From assembly GCA_026400535.1 (NCBI GenBank), contig JAPLOU010000043.1, forward strand, positions 115,729-179,728: 64,000 nucleotides of DNA. The letters run 5' to 3'. Positions within the stretch are counted from its first letter, which is position 1; every line of letters begins with the position of its first letter. A program made the position numbers and the translations under genes. This DNA is from Hyphomicrobiales bacterium. GTDB lineage: Bacteria > Pseudomonadota > Alphaproteobacteria > Rhizobiales > Beijerinckiaceae. Below are positions 49,819-52,316 of this stretch, piece by piece. Below the pieces are notes generated by a model that saw nothing but the letters and a program-made list of their open reading frames with translations, had not been told where the DNA came from and did no database searches.

Positions 49819-51210
49819 TCAATCCATCAGCATCCGCTTGAGCAACTCGACCTCTTCGCTCAGTGTGCGATCGTCGCCGATCGCTCTTTCGATCTTGCGG
49901 ACGGCATGAAGGACTGTGGTATGGTCCCTGCCGCCGAAGCGTCGGCCAATTTCCGGCAAGGAACGCAAGGTCAGCGACTTCGACAAGTACATGGCGATTT
50001 GCCGCGGTTTCACGACGGCGGCGGTGCGGCGCTCCGAAAGGATGTCGGCACGGCTGACATTGTAGCGCGCCGCCACGAGCTTCTGGATGTCCTCGATCCT
50101 GACCCGCCTGGGCTCGCGAAGACGGACAAGGTCGCGGATGGCGATCTCCGCCGTCTCGACGGTGAGCGCAGTTCCCGACAAGGTGGAGTGGGCGAGAAGC
50201 CGGTTGGCGGCGCCATCCAGATCGCGGCCATTGGTGGCGATGGCGTGCGCCACATAGGTCGCCACATCGGCGGATATCTGGAAGCTGGGATGCACCGCGC
50301 CGAGCGCGTTCAGCCGTGCCGTCAGGATCTTCAGCCGCAGTTCCTCGTCGAGCGTTCCGATCTCCACCACAAGGCCGCCGGCCAGGCGCGAGCGGACCCG
50401 CTCGTCAAGGCTCTCGAGCTCGCTGGGCAAACGGTCCGCGGCGACAACAACCTGCTTGCCGGCGTCGATCAGCGCATTGATGGTGTGGCCAAACTCAAGC
50501 TGAATCTGTCGGCCCTGAATGAACTGGGCGTCGTCGATGACGAGCAGGTCGATGCCGCGCAGTTGCTCCTTGAATGTCAGCGCCGTCTGCGCCTTCAAGG
50601 CTGAGACAAAGCCATACATGAACTTGTCGGCGGTGAAGTAGGCCACCTTCTTGCCGAGGCGGATGGCCTCCTGGGCCACGGCCTGCACGAGGTGCGTCTT
50701 GCCGAGACCCACGCCAGCGTGGAGATAGAGCGGATTGTAGGGCGATGGCGAACCGACCAGCGCCGCGATGCGCTCGGCGGAGGCGAAGGCCAGCGCGTTG
50801 GAGCGCCCGACCACGAAGGAGGCGAACGACAGGCGGCGGTCAAGCGGCGAGCCGAGATGGTCGGCCAGAACCGTCGGCTGGGGCGCGAGCGCAGGCTGCG
50901 GGCGAACGGTCGCCGTCTGTGCCGGCGGCGCAGGGACGCTCGCAGCCCGTTGCTGGTCACGGTTGACGGTGCGCACTTCGACGACAAAGCCGCCGCCGGC
51001 GCCGAGCTCCGATGCGACCAGACCCATCAGGCGGTCCACATAGTGCGTTTCGATCCAGCTCTTCAGGAACCGGGTTGGAACGGAGACGACCGCGAGGTGG
51101 TCCTCGATGCGCTCGAGCTCCATGCGCGCGAACCAGCTCGAAAAAACGTCTTCTCCCAGTTCCGCACGCAAGCGCTGGCGCAGTCGTTCCCAGCCGGTTG
51201 CCCTGCTCAT
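49819..51210 (-). CDS. dnaA: Chromosomal replication initiator protein DnaA
   Basis: NPLYLHAGVGLGKTHLVQAVA, LLVIDDAQFIQGR, C-terminal GGRDHTTVLHAVRKIE; alternative start at 51258. Confidence 0.97.
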   Translation of the reverse strand: MSRATGWERLRQRLRAELGEDVFSSWFARMELERIEDHLAVVSVPTRFLKSWIETHYVDRLMGLVASELGAGGGFVVEVRTVNRDQQRAASVPAPPAQTATVRPQPALAPQPTVLADHLGSPLDRRLSFASFVVGRSNALAFASAERIAALVGSPSPYNPLYLHAGVGLGKTHLVQAVAQEAIRLGKKVAYFTADKFMYGFVSALKAQTALTFKEQLRGIDLLVIDDAQFIQGRQIQLEFGHTINALIDAGKQVVVAADRLPSELESLDERVRSRLAGGLVVEIGTLDEELRLKILTARLNALGAVHPSFQISADVATYVAHAIATNGRDLDGAANRLLAHSTLSGTALTVETAEIAIRDLVRLREPRRVRIEDIQKLVAARYNVSRADILSERRTAAVVKPRQIAMYLSKSLTLRSLPEIGRRFGGRDHTTVLHAVRKIERAIGDDRTLSEEVELLKRMLMD

Positions 51211-51353
51211 CGTGTCGTTCCCACCCGAGGGCTTGTGGCTTTCGGAGTCGAGATACATGTCTTCACCCTACGCGCGACGCCGCCGCCCGGCGCACACGGT
51301 CCATTGACGTTAAGTTGAGCGTTCCCTTGATGCCCTTCCCCCGGCATCTGGGC

Positions 51354-51380
51354 GTGCCTCATGTTCGGGACATGAGGCAC
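51354..51380. repeat. 11-bp perfect inverted repeat upstream of dnaA
   Basis: GTGCCTCATGT-TCGGG-ACATGAGGCAC. Confidence 0.92.
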
Positions 51381-51548
51381 AATTCCTGTTGAACCAAACC
51401 ACTTGACGCTAGGGATTGCCGGCTTTCCAACAGCAAACCGTGACACACATAGGAACAACAGATCTCATTCCCGCCCCCAGCTGCTTCCAGCGCGGTCTTG
51501 CTACTTTCAGGTTTCTGAATGTCCGTCCGACGGGGAACCCCGCGTTCG

Positions 51549-51564
51549 TTAAGAAAACATTAAC
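51549..51564. promoter_or_regulatory. Candidate CtrA-type site TTAA-N7-TTAAC
   Basis: TTAAGAAAACATTAAC; exact match to the published CtrA consensus TTAA-N7-TTAA(C). Confidence 0.6.
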
Positions 51565-51662
51565 GACCAGTTTCGCGCCGGAGCAAGCAGCTTTTTTTAA
51601 ACTTATCCGGCACAGTCCTTAACGATAGCGGGAATGCCGACGAAACCGCGCAGGAGCCTCGA

Positions 51663-51868
51663 GAATCCTTGGACGATTCAGGCGGGAAGCCGACGAAAAA
51701 TATTTTCGCCGGCTTTGTCGCTTTCACCGGTCTGCCCTGCGCCAAGCCTCGGGTCGGACCGAGGGCCTCATCGCTTCATCGCTAAGACTCTGACGAAAAT
51801 AAGTTATTTTTGCGCACTCTGGATGATTTCAGATGCTCCGCCGCCGGGCGGCGGGACGCGCATGAGTC
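51663..51868. promoter_or_regulatory. Cluster of four GANTC (CcrM-type) sites upstream of dnaA
   Basis: GAATC 51663, GATTC 51675, GACTC 51786, GAGTC 51864. Confidence 0.55.
51687..51715. repeat. AT-centred inverted repeat in dnaA-rpsT intergenic region
   Basis: AAGCCGACGAAAA-ATA-TTTTCGCCGGCTT; 13-bp arms with one mismatch. Confidence 0.9.
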
Positions 51869-51944
51869 AAGCGGTCGCACCCCAAAAAACTCCTGACTTT
51901 GAAGCTTACGGTTACTGCCGCAGGTTCAGAAGGGCAGGCTGCAC

Positions 51945-51977
51945 CAAAAAGGCCCTCGCCTGACGGGCAAGAGCCTT
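51945..51977 (-). terminator. Rho-independent terminator for rpsT
   Basis: Minus strand AAGGCTCTTGCC-CGTCA-GGCGAGGGCCTT followed by TTT: 12-bp stem with two G-U pairs then U-run, about 75 nt after the rpsT stop. Confidence 0.82.
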
Positions 51978-52049
51978 GGATGACGACGACAATCGCCTGG
52001 TGATCTCTCCAAGGATGGCGACACGAAGGCCGCCACCCTCCGGCGGACC

Positions 52050-52316
52050 TCAGGAGGCCAGAGCCTTCACACGCTTGGCAAGGCGCGACACCTTCCGCGA
52101 TGCGGTGTTCTTGTGAGCCACGCCCTTCTGAACGGCGCGCATCATGATCGGCTCCGCGGCCTTCAGCGCAGCGGAGGCTGCTGCCTGGTCGCCGGCTTCG
52201 AGCGCTTCCTCGACCTTGCGCACATAGGTGCGCATCTGGCTGCGGCGCGACTTGTTCACCTCGGTGCGGCGAATGGTCTGGCGGGCAGCCTTCTTTGCGG
52301 ACTTCGTATTCGCCAT
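52050..52316 (-). CDS. rpsT: 30S ribosomal protein S20
   Basis: [56 protein letters not shown]. Confidence 0.96.

Follow-up and report, generated by a model that had tools for sequence, protein, structure and literature searches.

The chromosomal origins of Caulobacter and Rickettsia lie between hemE and a gene of COG1806, and contain sites for DnaA, CtrA and IHF (PMC1914354, after Brassinga et al.). In Caulobacter the dnaA leader is 155 nt long, and dnaA is controlled post-transcriptionally via the leader and the start of the gene (PMC4489657, PMC8443254). In Sinorhizobium meliloti dnaA also has a long 5′ UTR, which is a target of the sRNA EcpR1 (PMC4414408). A 2010 survey of alphaproteobacteria remarked that Rhizobia lack CtrA sites in front of dnaA, and proposed other regulators, not identified there, as a possible link (PMC2877005). 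A literature search on the region between rpsT and dnaA in related genera found nothing specific. Here we describe this region in a 64,000-nucleotide stretch of the genome of a Hyphomicrobiales bacterium (the window), for which an earlier note had left the choice between a chromosomal origin and a heavily regulated dnaA leader.

Layout of the rpsT-dnaA gap

The dnaA gene (49819-51258, minus strand, 479 aa) was identified by the Pfam domains Bac_DnaA, DnaA_N and Bac_DnaA_C and by NCBIfam TIGR00362 above its cut-off. Its upstream neighbour on the same strand is rpsT, encoding ribosomal protein S20 (52050-52316, minus strand; Pfam Ribosomal_S20p). The gap between the dnaA start at 51258 and the rpsT stop at 52050 is 791 bp (51259-52049), in agreement with the roughly 0.8 kb given previously, and its length is conserved, being about 550-1050 bp in most of the 74 relatives compared. 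The gap has a G + C content of 57.5%, the window one of 66.3%. The AT-rich tracts described in the earlier note were confirmed: TTTTTTTAAA and AAAAATATTTT are the only A/T runs of at least 9 in the window, and the gap holds two runs of at least 10 versus 0.18 expected (p=0.015). An AT-rich palindrome, CGAAAATATTTTTCG, was read directly at 51694-51708 (minus strand), and a similar A-tract, GAAAAAAAAGATTCGG, is found in Bosea. At the rpsT end, a probable rpsT terminator (GGCTCTTGCCCGTCAGGCGAGGGCCTTTTT, 51946-51975, minus strand) was missed by a simple scan; it aligns with the strong GC-stem and T-run terminators of relatives.

Clustering of GANTC sites had also been proposed. Four sites are present, at a density above the window average, but this is no excess over shuffles (mean 3.4, p=0.44). 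We therefore limit any epigenetic claim to the conserved TTGACTC, in which the GANTC lies inside CTTGACTC. The genes dnaN, recF and gyrB are all within the window as stated, with recF and gyrB on the far side, beyond rpsT. The segment 54316-63974, which carries recF, recQ and gyrB, lies on the opposite side of rpsT from dnaN-dnaA; the replication and repair genes are thus spread out, without a dnaA-dnaN-recF-gyrB cluster.

A candidate origin between hemE and ppsR

No convincing DnaA box had been seen in the rpsT-dnaA gap, and this was upheld: neither TTATNCACA nor the looser Caulobacter consensus [TC][TCG][AG]TCCACA (PMC2877005) has a match, and TTATCCGGC is not a box. A Caulobacter-type origin has several DnaA boxes and the gap has 0; it gave no IHF match, and its flanks are rpsT and dnaA, not the hemE and ppsR of alphaproteobacterial origins. 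It does carry one full CtrA site (51549-51563), as a Caulobacter-type origin does. Across 74 dnaA leaders, 13 Caulobacter-type DnaA boxes were counted versus 3.2 expected, and a CtrA site was present in 7 of the 74. Over the whole genome (3.79 Mb) there are only five copies of TTATNCACA, compared with 19 of its reversed control.

A region resembling an origin was found on another contig, C7, between hemE and the divergent ppsR, which we take to be the COG1806 gene. This gap (C7:43639-44029; L011 3639-4029) is 391 bp long, with an AT content of 41% compared with 35% for the contig. It contains two Caulobacter-type DnaA boxes, CCATCCACA and TCATCCACA, one full CtrA site, TTAACCGTTTGTTAAC, and a half site, TTAACCAT, giving the best count of boxes plus CtrA sites of all same-size segments on C7 and C22; a perfect TTATCCACA and an IHF match were not found in it. 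In the region upstream of ppsR in 29 relatives, 57 Caulobacter-type boxes were present versus 1.3 expected, and 26 of the 29 have a full CtrA site. In Bosea-type relatives (L102-L129) the same region carries a near-invariant AATGATTCACGTGAAACA, close to a parS site, which is missing from the hemE-ppsR region of our genome.

A strand-skew switch and a nearby parS are usual at alphaproteobacterial origins, without strictly defining them. The search of the whole genome for parS, with at most two mismatches, returned only two sites, both perfect and both on C7 (37310 and 39307), 4-7 kb from hemE; there is none near dnaA. Skew was read on two contigs of this genome (C7 and C22) and on samples from two relatives (G010 and G012). 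It is flat across C22, with no step around dnaA; on C7 it has clearly negative values as far as hemE and values close to zero past it. In the closed genome of G010 the skew is near zero round dnaA and positive from ppsR, mostly so for the next 2 Mb; the samples from G012 were too noisy, and in our own lineage skew is weak and noisy. In the majority of complete relatives compared, 100-200 kb separate dnaA from ppsR.

Like the origins of Caulobacter and Rickettsia, the hemE-ppsR gap has DnaA boxes and a CtrA site between the same flanks; it differs from them in that it has only a single full CtrA site and gave no match for IHF (PMC1914354). On its sequence features it is a strong candidate for oriC, at the canonical alphaproteobacterial position.

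The evidence on the two loci was then set against the possibility that the rpsT-dnaA gap is itself the chromosomal origin, with DnaA loading beside its own gene and CtrA blocking it there. The gap is large, conserved and AT-rich, adjoins dnaA and dnaN, and has a CtrA site, all of which would suit an origin. However, it has no DnaA box by the strict or the loose consensus and no skew step, nearly all relatives lack DnaA boxes in the same region, and the parS sites and the cluster of boxes and CtrA sites at hemE-ppsR, together with the skew step, are on another contig. The earlier note had named a skew switch and replication peak elsewhere, for example near hemE, and no DnaA binding as what would speak against an origin; the skew step does lie at hemE-ppsR, and the gap has no DnaA sites. 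Because of these data the gap is very probably not oriC, and we give that reading hardly any probability. Of the two alternatives left by the note, the origin loses its ground, and the regulated leader with its CtrA site is favoured by conservation in about 80 relatives. Setting the gap aside as oriC avoids a wrong origin annotation.

A probable proximal dnaA promoter, its CtrA box and the leader

A proximal promoter of the form TTGC-N~17-TGTAAGGT, nearly 300 bp upstream of the dnaA start codon, is kept across families, and was recognised in alignments of Bosea, Microvirga, Camelimonas, Alsobacter and others. In the window its -35-like element is TTGCTCC (51580-51586, minus strand). In our own lineage the sequence at this position is TTGCTCC-N-CGTTAATGTTTTCTTAACG, and the -10 position is inside a full CtrA palindrome, the box CGTTAATGTTTTCTTAACG (51547-51565, minus strand). 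The CtrA-type site pointed out previously is indeed perfect: its core TTAAGAAAACATTAA (51549-51563) is the window's only exact one, and such a match arises in 0.17% of shuffles. Measured against the E. coli consensus, the window has weak promoter hexamers, and a simple scan found none.

All six lineage members (the window and L020-L024) share the CtrA box, and no other relative has one at this place; the sole other match, in L095, is unrelated and far upstream. In a DnaA tree the six carriers form a single clade (support 100/100) whose sister is Bosea, so the box was probably gained once. Exact TTAAN7TTAAC occurs about 14 times in the 3.8 Mb genome, and two of these sites are at hemE-ppsR and at dnaA. 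CtrA is encoded at C91:69941-70612 (427 bits), and the genome also has genes for GcrA and a CcrM-type RAMA protein. The locus thus combines TTAA-N7-TTAAC at a conserved promoter position with a CtrA gene in the genome, as would be expected of a CtrA-regulated promoter. A CtrA motif that covers the -10 works as a repressor site in Caulobacter (PMC4287350), so repression of dnaA by CtrA would be the likeliest outcome. The arrangement is like that of CtrA-repressed promoters such as ctrA P1, where a CtrA motif also covers the -10, with the difference that the target here is dnaA (PMC4287350). From this arrangement we infer promoter use, CtrA binding and repression at dnaA.

Downstream of the promoter, the leader contains a perfect hairpin, GTGCCTCATGT-cccga-ACATGAGGCAC (51354-51380, minus strand). 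This stem agrees with the palindromes noted before; no shuffle gave a stem of at least 10. The alignment with the nearest relative, L020, shows that the hairpin is kept via two compensatory changes. Taken as a whole, the window's leader is no more stably folded than its shuffles (z -0.59). A short upstream ORF (51409-51468, minus strand) with a Shine-Dalgarno sequence (MRSVVPMCVTVCCWKAGNP) was also found. Its start and Shine-Dalgarno are kept in relatives and its peptide is not, and a coding role is doubtful. In Bosea (L025-L053) the leader after the proximal promoter is about 300 nt. Some 85-90 nt past its dnaA -10, in the position that the ORF takes in our lineage, a conserved Shine-Dalgarno and ATG begin an ORF of 6-8 codons (MRLFVF-like). 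In two Bosea-type genomes ATG-TGA stands in place of the longer upstream ORF, so the start site, and not the peptide, seems to be kept. A conserved leader peptide is unsupported, given these two genomes and changes which, in alignments read by eye, do not favour third codon positions.

Like dnaA of Caulobacter crescentus, the gene here appears to have a promoter of its own followed by a long leader, but the predicted leader is almost twice as long and the -10 is overlaid by a full CtrA box (PMC4489657, PMC8443254). A long dnaA leader is shared with S. meliloti, another rhizobial lineage (PMC4414408).

The distal element and a model for dnaA control

A second conserved element is located about 200-300 bp further upstream than the proximal promoter, and has the pattern TTGAC-N~50-GCRCA-N18-CA-N5-TTA. 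In the window this tripartite element (51774-51871, minus strand) consists of CTTGACTC at 51864-51871, GCGCA inside GTGCGCAAAAA at 51807-51817, and CA-N5-TTAG...AAG at 51774-51792. It was found in 37 gaps from several families, represented by our own lineage, Bosea, Chelatococcus, Pseudochelatococcus, Microvirga and Alsobacter, and also in seven further Bosea-type genomes; in Bosea its distance to the proximal -10 is about 225 bp. Measured from start to start, the spacing from [CG]TTGAC to the GCRCA block is 53-56 bases, and from there to TTA[AG] it is exactly 31 in 37 of the 37 gaps, in a search that tolerated spacings of roughly 48-60 and 20-35 bases. Among 33 sequences no variation was seen in the columns TTGAC, GC-CA, CA and TTA; these sequences were chosen by a pattern including parts of those columns. 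The flanking GGCAAAG block and CA columns lie outside the search pattern, and are therefore better evidence of conservation.

The pattern has a single match in our genome, and RNAalifold predicted zero pairs in the element. With no RNA structure, fixed spacing and one genomic copy, the distal element looks protein-bound, and it is probably a DNA site of fixed geometry. Two other interpretations of the element were rejected. As an ordinary sigma-70 promoter it would need a -10 after TTGAC, and none was seen by eye in most relatives; as a structured RNA it has zero RNAalifold pairs and belongs to no Rfam family. In four Microvirga (L076, L083, L090 and L096) one perfect TTATCCACA is found beside the distal element, about 750 bp upstream of dnaA. 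As this box is shared among them, DnaA may autoregulate dnaA there.

Taken together, we think it likely that the gap is the dnaA promoter and leader and not an origin, and that CtrA at the -10 would repress dnaA alongside oriC. Transcription of dnaA would most likely start close to the downstream edge of the CtrA box, at about 51545-51550, giving a leader of roughly 280-290 nt. The -10 element of our lineage has been absorbed into the full CtrA palindrome, and CtrA~P on the box would then cover both the -10 and the start site and keep RNA polymerase out. For as long as CtrA holds oriC at hemE-ppsR blocked as well, dnaA would be silent, and clearance of CtrA would release dnaA and oriC together. 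Further control of dnaA may come from the distal element, to which a protein probably binds, and from the long leader.

The control region could be as described and yet behave differently, with CtrA activating dnaA, or making no difference overall since the promoter actually used is elsewhere, for example at the distal element. Many Caulobacter promoters are activated by CtrA (PMC4287350), and the distal element shows high conservation and a constant spacing. A box placed on a conserved -10 position is, however, the arrangement of a repressor, and no recognisable -10 follows the distal TTGAC; we regard this alternative as unlikely. A small RNA or a structured RNA element encoded in the gap upstream of dnaA would account for the conserved blocks, the local hairpins and the long leader, but there is no Rfam match, the distal element gave no RNAalifold pairs, and the window leader, as noted, is no better folded than its shuffles. 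This explanation is very improbable.

We return to the reading of the gap as a promoter and leader under CtrA. More tentatively, and with somewhat less than even confidence, we propose that two undescribed features control dnaA: a lineage-specific CtrA box that replaces the dnaA -10, placing CtrA on both the origin and the initiator gene, and a distal element of fixed spacing, bound by a regulator, that would act across Bosea, Chelatococcus, Microvirga and our own lineage. If the CtrA box acts at the dnaA promoter, one protein may restrain both the origin and its initiator, which would be a clear case of rewiring. The conserved distal element, in turn, is a candidate binding site for a missing regulator of dnaA.
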